A stretch of 56,403 bases of DNA from a virus. Position numbers and translations under genes: made by a program. Within the stretch, counting starts at the first letter, position 1. The number at the start of each line of letters is the position of its first letter. Shown here one piece after another: positions 11,525 to 45,119 of the stretch. A model generated the notes under the pieces. It saw only the letters and a list, made by a program, of their open reading frames with translations. It made no database searches and was not told where the DNA came from. The stretch covers positions 1-56,403 of IMG/VR virus record IMGVR_UViG_3300047470_000274. One strand, written 5' to 3'.

Positions 11525-12703
11525 ATGAACATCAAGACAACCGCCCGCGAACGGCTGCTGGGCTATGCCTTCCCGATCCTCGGCTTCGACGGCCCGGGTA
11601 CTCAGGGCGGTGTGAACGAGCGCGCTGACATCCTGGTCCAGGCTGGTGATGGTTCCGATCTCAATGAGATCTGGGCCGAGATCCAGGCCACCCTCGGAGT
11701 CTGGAACAGCCAGCGCAACACGCTCATCTCCCGGCTCACCTACAACGTCACCGAGCCGATCGAGCACGTGGGTGTCCCCGGCACCACCGACTTCGAGGAA
11801 GCCTCGGAGTACGGTCAGCCCCGCGGTGCCGCCGGGTACAGCTGGTACAACCGTGGCTACGACTTCAAGTTCTACGACCTGGCCCAGCGCTTCACCTGGA
11901 TGTTCCTCGCCGAGGCCGGCCAGGCGCAGATCCGGAACCTCGTCAACCAGGCCTTCGAGGCCGACAACCGGCTGATGTTCAACAAGGTCTTCAAGACCCT
12001 GTTCAACCCGACCAACCTCGCCGGCGTCGCCGACAAGAACATCCCCACCACCGTCGTCAAGTTCTACAACGGTGACGGCGAAGTGCCGCCCACCTACAAG
12101 ACCAACACCTTCGCCGGCTCCCACTCCCACTACGGCACCACCAACTCTCTGGTCACCTCTTCCACCCTGACGTCCACCACCCTGGACGCGGTCGAGACCG
12201 ACTTCAAGAAGCATGGCTACACCCCCACCACCACCGGCGCCCAGCTCGTCCTCCTGGTGAACCCGCAGGAGGGCGCGCTCATCCGCGCCTACACCCGCGC
12301 CGGCGGCGCCAAGTACGACTTCATCCCCGGCAAGAACTACGGTGGCGGCATCTGGCTGCCGAACAGCAACGGTCTGGTCGGAGCGCCGCAGGGCATCGTC
12401 GACGAGGAGATCGGTACCTACGGGCCGTGGCACATCGTCGAGGAGGAGTACGTCCCGGCGGGCTACCTGGCCGCCCTGGCCTCCGGTGGCATCGACAGCC
12501 TCGAGAACCCGATCGGCATCCGCGAGCACTCGAACGCGGCCTACCGGGGTCTCACCATCATCCCCGGCGCCCGCTCGGACTACCCGCTCACCGACTCCTT
12601 CTACCGCCGCGGCTTCGGCACCGGCATCCGGCAGCGGGGCGCGGGCTTCCTCGTGCAGGTGACCTCGTCCGCCACCTACACGGTCCCGTCGATCTACGCA
12701 TGA
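11525..12703 (+). CDS. major capsid protein
   Basis: 392 residues with a long upstream spacer containing AAGGAG. It follows scaffold and decoration genes, has strongly biased GC-ending codons and ends with a hairpin terminator. Segments such as QRFTWMFLAEAGQAQIRNLVNQAFEADNR and the repeated use of P/A-domain-like turns suit an HK97-fold coat protein. No N-terminal delta domain is obvious, consistent with a separate scaffold gene. The assignment rests on position, length and composition. Confidence 0.88.
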   Translation: MNIKTTARERLLGYAFPILGFDGPGTQGGVNERADILVQAGDGSDLNEIWAEIQATLGVWNSQRNTLISRLTYNVTEPIEHVGVPGTTDFEEASEYGQPRGAAGYSWYNRGYDFKFYDLAQRFTWMFLAEAGQAQIRNLVNQAFEADNRLMFNKVFKTLFNPTNLAGVADKNIPTTVVKFYNGDGEVPPTYKTNTFAGSHSHYGTTNSLVTSSTLTSTTLDAVETDFKKHGYTPTTTGAQLVLLVNPQEGALIRAYTRAGGAKYDFIPGKNYGGGIWLPNSNGLVGAPQGIVDEEIGTYGPWHIVEEEYVPAGYLAALASGGIDSLENPIGIREHSNAAYRGLTIIPGARSDYPLTDSFYRRGFGTGIRQRGAGFLVQVTSSATYTVPSIYA

Positions 12704-37271: not shown

Positions 37272-37726
37272 GGCCCAGTCGAGATGACGTGTTGATGACC
37301 TCGGCCAAGATCTGGGAACAGCGCAGCACCTGTAGCCGAGCGCAGGTCGGGGTAGTAATCTCGAGGGATGGTCGGGTGCTATCCACCGGGTACAATGGGG
37401 CCCCCTCTGGTACCGACCACTGCGATCACCGGTGCAACTGCGGCTTCCAGTTTGGAGATGATCTCCATAGCTTGGACTGTCCCGCTGGGCCCTGTCGAAA
37501 CGTGGTACATGCCGAGGCAAACGCCATCATCTTCGCAGCTAAGTATGGTGTGGGAATCGATCGCGCCGAAGTCCACACCACCAGGGTGCCGTGCATGAAC
37601 TGCGCTGGAATGATCATCAATGCCGGCATCAAGCGCGTGGTATGGCTCGCGGAGCACCGAGACATGGAAGGCTTCCTGCGCCTAGGGCAGGCTGGCCTGG
37701 AGGTGATAAGGTACGGCCATGAGTGA
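37268..37726 (+). CDS. deoxycytidylate deaminase
   Basis: 152 residues. The zinc-deaminase signature is complete: HAEANAI near residue 82 (zinc His and proton-shuttle Glu) and PCMNCA near 110 (two zinc Cys). Extra Cys/His in CDHRCNCGF mark the dCMP-deaminase branch with a second metal site. It converts dCMP to dUMP, feeding the dTTP route. Overlaps of four bases with the TS-fold gene upstream and eight bases with the polymerase gene downstream show a tight operon. Confidence 0.85.
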   Translation: MRPSRDDVLMTSAKIWEQRSTCSRAQVGVVISRDGRVLSTGYNGAPSGTDHCDHRCNCGFQFGDDLHSLDCPAGPCRNVVHAEANAIIFAAKYGVGIDRAEVHTTRVPCMNCAGMIINAGIKRVVWLAEHRDMEGFLRLGQAGLEVIRYGHE

Positions 37727-40295
37727 TCCCCTTAAGCCCAACCGTGGCTGCACCGACTGTAAGCTCCATCGGAATGCCGACGAGGTCTGCACCATGGGCT
37801 TCGGCCCGCGTGATGCGGAAATCATGGTCATCGGCAAGATGCCCAACTCCGATCGGTACCAACAGCTGCTGGAGTCTCAGCTAGAGGAGGTAGGCCTCGA
37901 CCCCAATCGGGTGTACTACACCCAGGCGCTGAAATGCCGTAACTTCGAGGACAATGCCAGCAATGCCGATGTGAAGGCTTGCCGGCAATACCTGGATGCT
38001 GAGATCGCTGAGGTCAAGCCGACCCACATCTTGGCCCTGGGTAATGAGGGGCTCCTCGCTTCCACCGGCCACTCTGGCATCACCAAGTATCGAGGCAAGC
38101 CCGTTGATAAGGGCACTCACACCGTGATTCCCACCGTCTCTCCGGCGGCGGTCCAGCGTAACCCGGGCCAGCTGCCCGGCTATATGGCCGATGTACGGCT
38201 CTTCGCCAATAACTACCTTGGTCGAGCCAGCGGCATCAAGGTGCCCGAGTTCGCGGTCATCGACACCAAGAAGAAGCTGAAGGCTCTGCAGAAGATTCTG
38301 TACATGAGCCACACCATCAACTTCGACATCGAGACTACGGTTAATCCTCTGGGTGAATTCGACCCGGGCGCCAAGATCATCTCGCTCGCCGGCACATGCA
38401 TCGCCACGGTCACCAACGAGCAGACGGGCAAGGAGTCGGAGAAGCTCTTCGGCTTCGCTCTGCCGCTGTATCACCCGGAATCGCCCTGGCAGACCACTTG
38501 GAAGTCGGTGCTGAAGTTCCTCAAGGGAGCTTTGGAATCGATCCCCAAGACCATCGCCCAGAACGGCAAGTTCGACTGTCGTTGGCTGCTGCATCATGGT
38601 GTGGACATCAAGCTTAGCTTCGACACCATGCTGGCCATCCACCTGCTGAACGAGAACATCGCCAAGGGTCTGAAGCCCAATGCCATGGTCCGTCTCGGTG
38701 TAGCACCCTGGGGTAGGGACACCAAGAACCTGCTAGCTGAGCCGCTCAACGAGGTACTGGAATACAACTTCCTCGATACCTACTACATGTACCATGTCTA
38801 CAAGCAGCTCAAGAAGGAGCTGGCAGATCAACCTCGGCTGATGAGGATCTTCGTCAAGCTGATGATGCCCGCTGCCCGCGAGCTGGTATACATCGAGCGA
38901 CGAGGCATCTGGCTGGATATACAGCGGCTGAAGGAACGAAAGCCCATCGCCGAGGCCAAGCTTGCCGAGATCGAGGCGGGGCTGAACAACTACCTGCCCG
39001 ACATGGAATCTGATGAATGGCCCATGGATTCCAAGGGTCGCAAGAAGCTGGACATTAACTACAACGCCAGCCACTTCGCCCGGTGGTTCTTGTTCAAGCA
39101 CCTGGGGTTGCCAGTTCTCGAGCGGGGTAAGGAAAAGCCAGACGGTTCACCCGGCGATCCGAGTATGGCCGAGTCGGTACTACTCCACCTTAAGGAGAGC
39201 ACGGGCCACCCGGCTATCCAGCTCATGCTCGACCGAGTCGGGTGGCAGAAGAACCTCAGTTCCTTCTTCAATGCCTACGAGGTGATGTACGATGAGAATC
39301 ACCGTATCCATACTACCTTCAAACTGGCCGGTACCGTCACCGGAAGACTTAGCTCGGGCAAAGCAGATGCTGAGAAGGTTGGGGGGCGCACAGATCTTCG
39401 GGGGGTCAACCTACAGCAGGTCCCTCGTGATGCTCTCATCCGAGGCATGTTCGGAGCGATGCCAGGGTGGTCTTTTGTCGAGGCCGACTACTCCCAGATC
39501 GAGCTGAGGATTGCCTCGTTCATCGCCAACGAGAAGCACATGAAGCAGCTCTACATCGAGGGTGCCGACATCCATATGACTACCGCCATGGCGGTAACTG
39601 GGCTGCCCAAGTCGGCGGTGACCAAGGAGATTCGCAAGAAGGTCGGTAAGCCGGTCAACTTCGGATTCCTGTATGGCATGGGGTGGCGGAAGTTCATCGA
39701 GACTGCGTTCAACAACTACGGCGCAACCTTCACCGAGGCGGAGGCCCAGGGCTACCGACGGGCTTACTTCGATCTCTTCCCAGATCTTGTGAAGTGGCAT
39801 GAGCGGCAGCGCAGGCTCGTACGGAGCCATGGGAGGGTGCAGAGCCCCCTGGGGCGGGTACGCCACCTGCCTGACATCTACTCGCCTGAGAAGGGGGTCC
39901 AGGCTGAAGCAGAGAGGCAGGCAATCAACTCGCCTGTGCAGGGCTTCGCCTCTGATATGGCCTTGTTGTCGATGACTCTGATCAATGCCGAGTTCCGCCG
40001 GCAGGGCATTGTCGCTAACTGCCTGGGCCTGGTCCATGACGCCATCAACTTCGAGATCAGGGATGACCAGCTTGCCCGAGCTCTGCCCATCATCAAGAAT
40101 ACGATGGAGGATCCTGAGCCGCTACGCAGGAAGTTCGGTACAGTACTCGACATCCCGATCATCGCCGACCTCAAGGTGGGCAGGCACTGGGGTGACTCCA
40201 AGGAAGTCGAAGACGGTTCTCTGATTTTCGAGGAAGACCGACTGCGCGACTGGATGGAAAAGAACCATCCTGCATATCAGCTCACCGCGGCCTGA
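37719..40295 (+). CDS. DNA polymerase I with N-terminal UDG-like domain
   Basis: 858 residues. Residues 1-175 resemble family-4 uracil-DNA glycosylases, with Fe-S-type Cys in GCTDC, LKCRN and KACRQYL and the fold segment PTHILALGNEGLLAS; the usual GEAPG water-site motif is replaced by GKMPN, so glycosylase activity is doubtful. A 3'-5' exonuclease follows (NFDIETTV near 200). Polymerase motifs A (EADYSQIELRIAS), B (KKVGKPVNFGFLYGMG) and C (LVHDAINFE) are intact. It is the replicative polymerase candidate. Confidence 0.9.
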   Translation: MSDPLKPNRGCTDCKLHRNADEVCTMGFGPRDAEIMVIGKMPNSDRYQQLLESQLEEVGLDPNRVYYTQALKCRNFEDNASNADVKACRQYLDAEIAEVKPTHILALGNEGLLASTGHSGITKYRGKPVDKGTHTVIPTVSPAAVQRNPGQLPGYMADVRLFANNYLGRASGIKVPEFAVIDTKKKLKALQKILYMSHTINFDIETTVNPLGEFDPGAKIISLAGTCIATVTNEQTGKESEKLFGFALPLYHPESPWQTTWKSVLKFLKGALESIPKTIAQNGKFDCRWLLHHGVDIKLSFDTMLAIHLLNENIAKGLKPNAMVRLGVAPWGRDTKNLLAEPLNEVLEYNFLDTYYMYHVYKQLKKELADQPRLMRIFVKLMMPAARELVYIERRGIWLDIQRLKERKPIAEAKLAEIEAGLNNYLPDMESDEWPMDSKGRKKLDINYNASHFARWFLFKHLGLPVLERGKEKPDGSPGDPSMAESVLLHLKESTGHPAIQLMLDRVGWQKNLSSFFNAYEVMYDENHRIHTTFKLAGTVTGRLSSGKADAEKVGGRTDLRGVNLQQVPRDALIRGMFGAMPGWSFVEADYSQIELRIASFIANEKHMKQLYIEGADIHMTTAMAVTGLPKSAVTKEIRKKVGKPVNFGFLYGMGWRKFIETAFNNYGATFTEAEAQGYRRAYFDLFPDLVKWHERQRRLVRSHGRVQSPLGRVRHLPDIYSPEKGVQAEAERQAINSPVQGFASDMALLSMTLINAEFRRQGIVANCLGLVHDAINFEIRDDQLARALPIIKNTMEDPEPLRRKFGTVLDIPIIADLKVGRHWGDSKEVEDGSLIFEEDRLRDWMEKNHPAYQLTAA

Positions 40296-40630: not shown

Positions 40631-41695
40631 ATGCCGGGGCTTTATTTCGACCCGAGTGTTGGCAAAGAGGTTGTCACTCACTCGATGATCAAGGCATTTC
40701 GGGGGTGTCCCCGACAGACTCTGTACAAGCAGGTGGAGAGGCTGAAGCCTCGCCTGCTCTCCAAGCCCCTTCGCCGGGGTACCTGGATGCACCACTTGCT
40801 CGAGGAGCACCACGCTGGTCGAGACTGGCGCAAGATGCACCGGGCCCTGAGTGCCAAGTACAACGAGCTCTTCGATGAGGAGAAGGACCTCTACGGCGAT
40901 CTGCCGACCGAGTGCCTGGCTCTCATGGAGTCTTACATCTGGCACTACCGGGAGGATCCCTGGAAGGTGCTGGAGACCGAGTTCACGGTCGAAGCTGAGT
41001 TCCCCGATGGCACGCTCTACCGAGGCAAGGTGGATGCTCTCATCGAGAACGCCTTCGGCCTCTGGATCGTCGACCACAAGACTCACGGTCAACTGCCTGA
41101 CCACGGCTTCCGACTGCTCGACGCTCAGTCTGCCCTGTACTTGTGGGCGGCACGTCGCATGAAGATCCCGGTCGAGGGGTTCATCTGGAACTACCTCAAG
41201 ACCAAGGCCCCCTCGGTACCTACTCTGCTGAAGGACGGCTCTCGGCTGTCGAAGCGACTCGGTGAGACCGACTACCTCACCTACACCAAGGCCATCCAGC
41301 AGCTGAAGAGGGACCGAGGCTACCGCATCACACGAGCTGACGTAGAACTCGCCAATCGACTGAAGGGGTACCGATACGTACCCGGCGAACCTCAGCTCTC
41401 CCCATTCTTCCGTCGCGATCTCCTGGAAAAGGACGACGCGATGCTGAAGCGAGTGGCCATGGAGGCTTACCACACCGCCAAGCGGATGGCCGCCTACCCG
41501 TTCGACAACCGTGACATCGTCGAGCGCAACGTGGACTCTCACAAGTGCCGGCGATTCTGCGGCTACCAAGACCTCTGCACGGTAGAACTCATGGGCGGCA
41601 ATCCCACACCCATCCTTCGTAGCAGCTTCAAGGTCGGCGACCCGCAGGACTACTACCAGGACCGCGCCGGCGAGCTCAGGGGTGGTGCAGAATGA
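40631..41695 (+). CDS. Cas4/RecB-family exonuclease
   Basis: 354 residues. PD-(D/E)XK nuclease features are present: Asp in YRGKVDALIENAFGLWIVDHKT (motif D...DHKT near 135-153) and a QSALYLWAARR helix after it. A Cys near residue 26 (FRGCPRQ) and three near the end (HKCRRFCGYQDLC) fit an Fe-S cluster as in Cas4 and AddB. It would process DNA ends for recombination or packaging, working with the Sak4-like ATPase two genes downstream. Confidence 0.8.
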   Translation: MPGLYFDPSVGKEVVTHSMIKAFRGCPRQTLYKQVERLKPRLLSKPLRRGTWMHHLLEEHHAGRDWRKMHRALSAKYNELFDEEKDLYGDLPTECLALMESYIWHYREDPWKVLETEFTVEAEFPDGTLYRGKVDALIENAFGLWIVDHKTHGQLPDHGFRLLDAQSALYLWAARRMKIPVEGFIWNYLKTKAPSVPTLLKDGSRLSKRLGETDYLTYTKAIQQLKRDRGYRITRADVELANRLKGYRYVPGEPQLSPFFRRDLLEKDDAMLKRVAMEAYHTAKRMAAYPFDNRDIVERNVDSHKCRRFCGYQDLCTVELMGGNPTPILRSSFKVGDPQDYYQDRAGELRGGAE

Positions 41696-41811: not shown

Positions 41812-42621
41812 ATGGCAGAGAAAGACTATGCCGCGATCGCCAAGCGACGAATCCAGCGGCCGGCGGAGATCCATCGGCTGCCGAAGCTTCACATCTACTC
41901 CCGACAGAAGAAGGGCAAGACCACCTTCAGCACGTCGGCAGGTGTGGAACAGACGCTGATCCTGGACCCGGAGCATGGCACCGACGCCATGAAGACCAAG
42001 AACCCCCACGTCTGGCACATCGAGAAGTGGGAGGACCTCGACGAGGCCTGGAACTACATCCGAAGTGGCGACCACCCTTACAAGTGGATCGGGGTCGACG
42101 GCCTGACCAAGTTCTCCCAGATGTCACTGAAGTACACCATGCGGCTGCAGGAGGAGCGATCCATCGATCGCATCCCAGGTCAGGTACAGCAACGGGACTA
42201 TGGGAAGGCCGGCGAGGTCATGAAGACCATGCTGACCAACTTCCATAACCTCCCTTACGGCGTCATCTTCACCTCTCAGGAACGGGCCAACGAGGCGGCC
42301 GACTCCGAAGAGGACGAAGACATCGAGGGTGAGACCATGGAGTACATCCCCGACCTGCCCAAGGGGGTTCGAAGCTACGTCAACTCCTTGGTCGATGTGA
42401 TCGGGCGACTCTACGTCGCCAAGATCGACAGCCCCAAGAACCCCGAACTGAAGATCGCCCAGCGTAGGCTGTGGATCGGAGAGTCGCTGAAGTACGACAC
42501 CGGCTACCGATCTGACTACACCCTGCCCGACATGATCAAGATGCCCAGCATCCCCAAGCTGGTGGCTCTGATGGACACCGGCAAGGCCCCGGTTCGGCGG
42601 ATCGCCAAGGCCGCCAGCTAA
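41812..42621 (+). CDS. Sak4-like RecA-fold ATPase (AAA_24 type)
   Basis: 269 residues. A shortened Walker A at YSRQKKGKTTFS (near 29-40), a Walker B at KWIGVDGLTKF (near 92) and a sensor-like region FTSQERANE fit the Sak4/AAA_24 single-strand annealing ATPases of phages. It probably loads on ssDNA together with the protein encoded next, forming a recombination pair. The SSB-like partner downstream strengthens the assignment. Confidence 0.75.
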   Translation: MAEKDYAAIAKRRIQRPAEIHRLPKLHIYSRQKKGKTTFSTSAGVEQTLILDPEHGTDAMKTKNPHVWHIEKWEDLDEAWNYIRSGDHPYKWIGVDGLTKFSQMSLKYTMRLQEERSIDRIPGQVQQRDYGKAGEVMKTMLTNFHNLPYGVIFTSQERANEAADSEEDEDIEGETMEYIPDLPKGVRSYVNSLVDVIGRLYVAKIDSPKNPELKIAQRRLWIGESLKYDTGYRSDYTLPDMIKMPSIPKLVALMDTGKAPVRRIAKAAS

Positions 42622-42718: not shown

Positions 42719-43468
42719 ATGGCTGCTGTTACCAGGTCTGCGGCGACTGCCAAGGCCCTCGACTTCACCGATGTCAAGGATGGTGGAGCCAGCTTCAACA
42801 AGAAGCGGGTCCCCATGGGCGACTACCTGGCGAAGGTCACCAAGTGCGAGGACTCGCCGACGAAGGAGACCAAGGAGCCCCAGTGGCTCTACACCATCGA
42901 GCTGGTCGAGAAGTACACCGACCGCAAGTTCCCGTACTACTGCAAGCTGCAGGCGAACCAGCTCTGGAAGGTCCGCAACCTCTTCCTGGCCGCCGGCATC
43001 AGCATCCCCAAGCGCAAGGTCAAGCTCGACCCGAACCGAGTCGTCGGCAAGCTGGTCGGGCTGACGCTCGAGGACGACGAGTACGACGGCAAGATGCAGT
43101 CCAACATCGCCCAGTTCTTCCCCGCCAGCGACCTGACCGAGGGCGAGGACCCGGAGGACGAGCTCGACGACGAAGAGGCCGAGGACGAAGACGAGGCTGA
43201 GGAGGAGCCGGCGCCCGTTCGCCGGAAGGCCCGTCCCGCCCCGGAGCCCGAGCCGGAGGAAGAGGAGGACGAGGAGGAGGAAGCCGAGGAGGAGGACGAG
43301 GAAGAAGAGGAGCCTGCCCCGGTGAGGCGCAAGGCCCCGGCCAAGGCCTCGATCCCGGCTCAGCGGAAGGCCTCTCCCGCCGTCGCCCGCAAGAAGGTGG
43401 CTGCCCGTCCGGCAGTCGAGGACGTGGACGAGGACGACCTCGAAGCGCTCGACCTCGATGAGATCTGA
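42719..43468 (+). CDS. single-stranded-DNA-binding-like protein with acidic tail
   Basis: 249 residues. The first 140 form a compact domain (VPMGDYLAKVTKCEDSPTKE ... LYTIELVEKYTDRKFPYYCKL) like the DUF669/SSB-type partners of phage annealases. The remainder is Glu/Asp-rich, contains two copies of EEPAPVRRKA and ends EDDLEALDLDEI, reminiscent of acidic SSB tails that recruit enzymes. Codons are GC-ending, so it is probably abundant. The low-complexity acidic stretch is prone to assembly error. Confidence 0.7.
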   Translation: MAAVTRSAATAKALDFTDVKDGGASFNKKRVPMGDYLAKVTKCEDSPTKETKEPQWLYTIELVEKYTDRKFPYYCKLQANQLWKVRNLFLAAGISIPKRKVKLDPNRVVGKLVGLTLEDDEYDGKMQSNIAQFFPASDLTEGEDPEDELDDEEAEDEDEAEEEPAPVRRKARPAPEPEPEEEEDEEEEAEEEDEEEEEPAPVRRKAPAKASIPAQRKASPAVARKKVAARPAVEDVDEDDLEALDLDEI

Positions 43469-43974: not shown

Positions 43975-44373
43975 GTGACCACTCAGGGAGAATCCAGGAT
44001 CTCTGGAAGCATCATGACCGCCCTCCGACTCGAGGGGGTATTCTGCTTCAAGATCCACGGCGGGCCCACCATGATGGCTGGACTGCCTGACATCATGGCC
44101 TGTGTGGACGGTCAATTCTTGGCGCTGGAGACCAAGACTCCCGAGAAGCGGAAGAACACCAGCGCCATTCAGCGGCATGTGCATGGGCTGATGCGCCAAT
44201 CGGGGGCACGGGTGGAAGTAGTCTGCGGAGTGCAGGAAGCGCTGAGCATCGTCGATGATATGCGCACCGCCACCCGCATCACCCAGGTCTCACCGCCCGA
44301 CCCAGCCATCTCAGAGCGCGAGCGACGCCTCGCCATCAAGCCACGCCCCATCAAGGACAATCCCCAAGCATAG
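43975..44373 (+). CDS. VRR-NUC domain nuclease
   Basis: 132 residues from a GTG. The VRR-NUC core is clear: GGPTMMAGLPDIMACVDGQFLALETKTPEK has the PD...(E)xK catalytic set, followed by QRHVHGLMRQSGARVEVVCGVQEAL, the conserved strand-helix. Single-domain VRR-NUC proteins in phages cut branched or structured DNA, often to resolve replication intermediates. The C-terminal 35 residues are basic and probably disordered. Confidence 0.8.
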   Translation: MTTQGESRISGSIMTALRLEGVFCFKIHGGPTMMAGLPDIMACVDGQFLALETKTPEKRKNTSAIQRHVHGLMRQSGARVEVVCGVQEALSIVDDMRTATRITQVSPPDPAISERERRLAIKPRPIKDNPQA

Positions 44374-44381
44374 GAGAGATC

Positions 44382-44849
44382 ATGGATTTCGGTAAGGCTT
44401 TGAACCGACTCAAGGGTGGTTCCAAGGTCGCCCGGGCTGGATGGAATGGGAAGGGGATGTGGCTCGTACTGCAGAAGGGCTACCCCGATGGTATCCCCAT
44501 CAATCGGAACACAGCCGAGGCCACGGAGATTCCCGAGGGCACGGTGTGCAAGTTCCGCCCGTACATCATGATGTACACCGCCGATGCCGAGTTCGTACCC
44601 TGGGTGGCTTCTCAGACCGACCTGCTGGCTGACGACTGGCAGTGGGTATCTGACGCCAATCAGTGCGCCCCGGCACCCGGTGAGCCCACCCCCGGAGCTG
44701 CCTACGGTGCCGAGCAGGATCAACCGCCCATCTCGATCGATGACCTGGAGCCGCCATTCGTGACGGGCAAGTTCGAGGGGCCCGCGGGCGACCAGGTGCA
44801 TGCCGAGATCACGGTGACGCGGCAACAGGGTCACTGCAAGGGCGAGTAG
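44382..44849 (+). CDS. tad2: Tad2-type anti-Thoeris protein (DUF2829) with C-terminal extension
   Basis: 155 residues. Residues 1-90 match DUF2829: MDFGKALNRLKGGSKVARAG with WN next, a middle insertion, then FRPYIMMYTADAEFVPW and SQTDLLADDW. Proteins of this family, named Tad2, bind and sequester the cyclic ADP-ribose-type signal made by ThsB and so block Thoeris defence. The last 60 residues (PAPGEPTPGAAYGAEQ onward) are an acidic, disordered extension ending in a Cys-containing tail. It follows the nuclease gene by eight bases with AGGAG upstream. The family assignment is firm by motif; activity is inference. Confidence 0.8.
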   Translation: MDFGKALNRLKGGSKVARAGWNGKGMWLVLQKGYPDGIPINRNTAEATEIPEGTVCKFRPYIMMYTADAEFVPWVASQTDLLADDWQWVSDANQCAPAPGEPTPGAAYGAEQDQPPISIDDLEPPFVTGKFEGPAGDQVHAEITVTRQQGHCKGE

Positions 44850-44906
44850 TTCCCACACATGACTGAGCCCGGCCCCAGGCGAGATCTGAGGTCGGGCTCG
44901 GTGGTG

Positions 44907-45119
44907 TCAGAAACCCTCGAGGATCAGAGCCGCAGCCGTGTGCTCCTTGACCCCCACTTCGGCGAACCCCTCATGGCGCTTGAGCCAGTAGATCCACTTA
45001 TCAGGGTCATGTGTGGGAGGCAGGGTGCAGGTGCCGTTATCCATGAGGTCCCATCGAGCATCGCTGAGTTCATCCCAGTCGAGGCCCTGCGGTCGGGGGA
45101 ACTTCGGCTTCGTGGTCAT
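44907..45119 (-). CDS. hypothetical protein, leaderless
   Basis: 70 residues from the ATG at 45119, chosen because a promoter ends six bases upstream. The sequence is acidic with a GLDWDELSDARWDLMDNG helix and a C-terminal GVKEHTAAALILEGF. No family is recognised. It is the last gene of the leftward block and its stop faces the Tad2 gene. Confidence 0.6.
   Translation of the reverse strand: MTTKPKFPRPQGLDWDELSDARWDLMDNGTCTLPPTHDPDKWIYWLKRHEGFAEVGVKEHTAAALILEGF

Follow-up and report, generated by a model that had tools for sequence, protein, structure and literature searches.

A probable Tad2-family sponge with a tail predicted to be disordered, encoded in the replication operon of a soil virus, and a neighboring C-terminal nonapeptide

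The sponge mechanism of Tad2 proteins, their assembly into tetramers, and the topology of their ligand pockets have been reviewed (PMC12043709), and the pocket for glycocyclic ADP-ribose (gcADPR) is formed by the β1–β2 loop, the β3–β4 and β4–α3 loops, strand β4, and helix α3 (PMC12043709). ModTad2, from a Myroides odoratus prophage, binds histidine-ADP-ribose (His-ADPR) and SPO1 Tad2 binds gcADPR (PMC13299392); HgmTad2 and SptTad2 bind cyclic dinucleotides too. Tad2 proteins reveal the immune signals that a phage expects to meet. Here we analyze a gene of this family, tad2, which occurs as a single copy in a 56.4-kb contig of an uncultivated soil virus (IMG/VR record IMGVR_UViG_3300047470_000274; the whole stretch of 56,403 nucleotides is called the window below).

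The initial annotation had recognized the Tad2/DUF2829 pattern in the first ~90 residues of the tad2 product, and our results bear this out. Pfam family PF11195 (Tad2-like, DUF2829) spans residues 1–89 with E = 6.2e-26 and a score of 91.2 bits, compared to a gathering cutoff of 25, and a PDB sequence search matched the same residues to chains of ModTad2, HgmTad2/AcrIIA7, SptTad2, and SPO1 Tad2, with a best E of 1.2e-15. Both the WNGKGM loop and the PWVASQTDLLADDW block are intact. Within the latter, W74, S77, Q78, D80, L82, A83, D85, and W86 are kept in most of 87 homologues, and window Tad2 has lost 0 of 13 signature residues of the WNG loop and the W..SQTD.LA.DW pocket region. In the GYPDGIPINRNTAEATEIPEG insert, Y34, P35, G37, I38, N41, N43, and T44 are invariant in the close homologue group A4, and the model of window Tad2 places a strand at residues 34–39 and a helix at residues 42–48. 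The predicted structure has a predicted local distance difference test score (pLDDT) of 94–98 (about 95) across most of domain residues 1–90, with the lowest values of the domain at residues 21–30, the WNGKGM region (block mean 82). When this model was compared with solved structures by Foldseek, 24 of 24 hits at E ≤ 0.001 were Tad2 chains, and VIA-align gave Z scores of 11.4–12.3 for Tad2 versus 5.4 for the next fold. NCBIfam and PADLOC scans returned no match for the window Tad2 protein. Taken together, the Pfam and PDB sequence matches, the predicted fold, and the signature residues strongly support assignment of this open reading frame (ORF) to the Tad2 family, with a canonical domain.

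Window Tad2 is thus of a kind already known, and its odd feature is a long C-terminal tail. ModTad2 (PDB 8V3E, 9EIB), the best PDB sequence match, has the same fold, domain length, and WNGKGM and LAEDW blocks, but is 41% identical to window Tad2, carries SVSD where the window protein has SQTD, and is tailless. SPO1 Tad2 (gp34.65; PDB 8SME, 8SMF, 8SMG) shares the fold, the SQTD block, and the WNGK loop at 42% identity, but is about 90 residues long, tailless, and different in its central insert. HgmTad2/AcrIIA7 and SptTad2 (PDB 8KBI–8KBM, 8WJC, 8WJD) also have the same fold together with the WNGKGM and W.ASQTD blocks, whereas their insert, reported to bind cyclic dinucleotides, is longer, and they have no long C-terminal tail. 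The closest homologues found are Tad2-like proteins of actinomycetes (Actinoplanes, Actinomadura, Streptosporangium; L115–L119), which are 67–73% identical and share the GYPxGIPINxNTA segment; these copies differ in having no comparable tail where read, and the Actinoplanes copy adjoins terminase- and portal-like prophage genes rather than a replication operon. As a separate observation, an ORF in L001 (7657–8247) and matches to phrog_1048/872 suggest that some Tad2-like proteins, encoded next to terminase genes, may, with provisional start codons, bear an N-terminal domain of ~90 residues.

We consider it likely that window Tad2 is a Tad2-family sponge of an actinobacteriophage, produced from the replication operon, that sequesters an ADP-ribose-type Thoeris signal and bears a disordered, lineage-specific tail. 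tad2 is the last gene of the operon and has its own ribosome-binding site, and residues 1–89 are predicted to fold as a Tad2 protomer. By analogy with the characterized proteins, protomers would assemble into a tetramer whose pockets, with the WNGKGM loop and the SQTDLLADDW helix as their lining, would hold an ADP-ribose-derived signal, leaving the host effector off. The published pocket elements should correspond to the two blocks kept in window Tad2. A gcADPR-type ligand may be slightly likelier than His-ADPR, because window Tad2 has SQTD, as do SPO1 Tad2, HgmTad2, and SptTad2, versus SVSD in ModTad2, although this weak hint turns on a single contrasting protein. A sponge of this type would imply that the phage lineage meets a signaling TIR or related defense.

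Sister phages, recovered via the neighboring Cas4 gene, show how this position has varied. A Tad2-like gene occupies the same slot in L007, L008, L010, and L012 and is missing from L009 and L013. Like the window copy, the L012 protein has lost 0 of 13 signature residues. By comparison, seven of the 13 are changed in each of the L007 (8146–8481), L008 (11356–11751), and L010 (12343–12681) proteins, including the loop NG and W74. These losses exceed those of every other homologue examined, a comparison that favors conservation in the last block, since most homologues were gathered with a pattern for that block, and that is free of this bias for the NG and W74 losses. All three divergent proteins nevertheless score above the PF11195 gathering cutoff (51.5, 41.9, and 37.3 bits for L007, L008, and L010, respectively), and the model of the L007 protein, the only sister modeled, has a pLDDT of about 96 over the domain and 24 of 24 Foldseek hits at E ≤ 0.001 to Tad2. 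In the best tree of Tad2 domains the sister copies do not group, yet a single origin is not rejected (p-AU, from the approximately unbiased test, 0.33), so either transfer or fast divergence may lie behind this pattern. Judged by their residues, the L007, L008, and L010 proteins are candidates for changed ligand choice, and such sisters, with the same fold and altered pocket residues, offer a ready set for studying how that change occurs.

Several observations weigh against a sponge for an ADP-ribose-type Thoeris signal. Ligand choice varies inside the Tad2 family, and three sisters keep the family match without the pocket residues, so in this lineage the slot gene may act on a different ligand or have a different role. 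We could not link any Thoeris system to a host: a search for ThsA (PF18185) found none in 394 actinomycete genomes, and is uninformative in that 14 of 14 control genomes likewise gave none. One alternative is that the main ligand is a cyclic dinucleotide, making the protein an inhibitor of cyclic-oligonucleotide-based anti-phage signaling (CBASS) instead. The conserved strand–helix insert of window Tad2 could be taken in its favor, but this insert (GYPDGIPIN...) is shorter than that of HgmTad2 and SptTad2 and different in sequence, the ADP-ribose-type pocket keeps its WNGKGM and SQTD blocks in full, and SPO1 Tad2 does not bind 3'3'-cGAMP (PMC11722364); we therefore regard it as unlikely. We also find it rather improbable that the slot gene is drifting or has been repurposed and is not an active anti-Thoeris protein. 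The loss of seven of 13 signature residues in three sisters and the absence of the gene from two others would fit such a history, whereas the window and L012 copies retain every signature residue, and the family scores of the divergent copies and the Tad2 fold predicted for the L007 protein indicate that the slot gene is not simply decaying. Some of the PDB matches are to chains named AcrIIA7 or "Inhibitor of Type II CRISPR-Cas system", as HgmTad2 was first described as AcrIIA7, but an anti-CRISPR role for window Tad2 is very improbable: the same HgmTad2 structures were deposited with 1',2'-cyclic ADP-ribose and cGG, so the documented ligands of the fold are nucleotides, and no feature of the window suggests a link with Cas9.

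The tail had been described as an unusual acidic extension of 60 residues. It is unusual, being the longest among 103 complete homologues with a median tail of one residue, but it is 66 residues long and only mildly acidic, with 11 acidic, three basic, and 17 proline and glycine residues. Residues 90–155 have no Pfam match at E ≤ 1, and the base composition of the tail DNA by codon position is broadly compatible with coding. The further suggestion that the tail alters oligomerization, ligand choice, or stability found no positive evidence, as the tail is predicted to be disordered and varies among sisters while the domain signature is intact, and ligands can probably be bound without the tail. 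We read it as a fast-evolving, presumably disordered add-on of this phage lineage, because sister phages bear shorter tails in the same slot. That the tail is functional, perhaps modifying Tad2 action through recruitment or stability, seems to us possible but doubtful. Besides its record length, this idea draws on the presence of tails of 15–66 residues in all five Tad2-like members of the slot (window, L007, L008, L010, and L012), on a weak likeness between the window and L008 tails (one of 300 shuffles scores as high), on the NP.VIGYNFED motif common to the L008 and L010 tails, and on the conserved peptide RPLKDNPQA that terminates the L007 tail. Tail length and sequence differ widely between the sister phages, however, no family match accompanies the predicted disorder, and the RPIKDNPQA peptide is missing from window Tad2 itself.

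That peptide may matter more than Tad2 and is the more surprising lead. In the window, RPIKDNPQA forms the C-terminal end of the VRR-Nuc/Hjc-like endonuclease encoded before tad2. An exoribonuclease (RNase AS-like, 11678–12334) in L010 ends in the same peptide with Arg for Lys, and the L007 Tad2-like protein ends in it with Leu for Ile, so that the carriers in these three sister phages are three adjacent genes. IMG/VR DNA scans for the peptide followed by a stop codon found 11 contigs with TAA or TAG and eight with TGA (19 besides the window; L181–L199). When the stop was dropped and the leading Arg made part of the pattern, the scan gave the identical set of 19 contigs, and thus every copy found directly precedes a stop; the leading Arg lay outside the pattern of the stop-codon scans, yet was present in 19 of 19. 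Including the window, the 20 copies comprise 17 distinct DNA versions and use all three stop codons, on which grounds we rejected a DNA element. With codons free and the peptide invariant, selection acts on the peptide. Its carriers fall into 14 families without detectable mutual similarity, including Tad2-like, VRR-Nuc, RNase AS-like, and dGTP diphosphohydrolase-like proteins and proteins of unknown type, although near-identical contigs among those tagged (L183/L189, L184/L191) reduce the independent lineages to about a dozen. No tagged record has more than one copy. Close relatives without the peptide include L008, L009, L012, and L013, as well as phages phiAsp2 and Shrew; identifiable relatives of the tagged phages infect actinobacteria, and one contig has no match.

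RP[IL][KR]DNPQA seems to be a short module, hitherto undescribed, that actinophages place at the C terminus of a protein. It is strictly C-terminal, present once per phage, and seems to have moved between unrelated carriers. A single copy per phage in this position, regardless of carrier, suggests a ligand that binds one partner through its free end, and a fixed C-terminal peptide that hops among unrelated proteins suggests that this partner is strongly constrained. We give an about even chance to the idea that the exposed peptide engages a single shared partner, as a ligand for early takeover or counter-defense; the partner would probably be a host protein of actinobacteria, and the identity of the carrier would be of little importance. 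The peptide may instead act in packaging or localization, as a degron, or by arresting the nascent chain, and because the copies end in any of the three stop codons, a mechanism tied to a single one of them is less likely. Mimicry of a host tail was unsupported, as the exact pattern (variants were not searched) was absent in 394 actinomycete and 396 Actinomycetota genomes, two sets with slight overlap, and RPIKDNPQA was not mentioned in the literature searched, which covers few subscription papers. One tagged carrier family, phrog_5120/1761, occurs in L182 (5292–5681), L197 (9742–10179), L198 (10365–10802), and L200 (1474–1827), and its homologue Pas23 of Actinoplanes phage phiAsp2 is untagged. 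The L198-type carrier looked Acb2-like; PDB and Pfam gave no support, and we do not claim it as an Acb2 sponge.

Features of the tad2 locus, in window coordinates
Feature	Coordinates	Strand	Evidence or remarks
DNA polymerase A with N-terminal uracil-DNA-glycosylase-like domain	37719..40295	+	PF00476 E=1e-71, PF03167 E=2e-15
Cas4/PDDEXK exonuclease	40631..41695	+	phrog_1218 E=1e-80
Sak4-like AAA protein (ATPase)	41812..42621	+	phrog_124 E=1e-42
Single-stranded DNA-binding (SSB)-like protein	42719..43468	+	phrog_14876 E=2e-47; syntenic with Shrew gp86 "SBB protein"
VRR-Nuc/Hjc-like endonuclease, 132 residues, directly upstream of tad2	43975..44373	+	phrog_93 E=1.7e-19; syntenic with Shrew gp87 "VRR-Nuc domain protein"
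Codons for RPIKDNPQA, C-terminal end of the endonuclease	44344..44370	+	
AGGAG ribosome-binding site of tad2	44372..44376	+	5 nt 5' of ATG; overlaps stop codon of upstream gene
tad2, 155-residue Tad2-like protein	44382..44849	+	ORF with ATG start; PF11195; PDB Tad2 matches
WNGKGM loop, residues 21–26	44442..44459	+	alignments; part of gcADPR pocket by published topology (PMC12043709)
GYPDGIPINRNTAEATEIPEG segment, residues 33–53, conserved strand–helix insert common to closest homologues	44478..44540	+	
PWVASQTDLLADDW block, residues 73–86, last helix and next strand	44598..44639	+	
C-terminal tail, 66 residues (90–155), predicted disordered	44649..44846	+	pLDDT 54–68
Strong hairpin between tad2 and convergent minus-strand genes	44857..44907	+	-36.2 kcal/mol, z -4.74, no shuffle equally stable

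The placement of tad2 at the end of a replication operon, as first annotated, agrees with its surroundings: tad2 comes after same-strand genes for polymerase A, a Cas4-type exonuclease, a Sak4-like ATPase, an SSB-like protein, and a nuclease, and is itself followed by the hairpin, which probably marks the end of the operon, and by minus-strand ORFs. The window polymerase is 83% identical to that of an IMG/VR sister phage, and the large terminase subunit (TerL) shares 66% identity with its counterpart in Curtobacterium phage Shrew; a megablast of the right arm of the contig against cultured phages gave no match. In Shrew the genes follow the same order (thymidylate synthase, deaminase, polymerase, Cas4, ATPase, SSB, VRR-Nuc), but the tad2 slot holds another small gene, which marks tad2 as an accessory gene at the operon end. 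That Shrew gene, gp88, was considered as a Tad2-like candidate and rejected, as it has no likeness to Tad2. Because both the phage kin (Shrew) and the bacteria with the closest Tad2 homologues are actinobacterial, we infer an actinobacterial host. Two of the operon proteins have further features of their own: the uracil-DNA-glycosylase-like domain of the polymerase (PF03167) lies at residues 27–151 and is accompanied by a 3'-5' exonuclease domain, and the C-terminal half of the SSB-like protein contains a long acidic run and two EEPAPVRRKA-type stretches.
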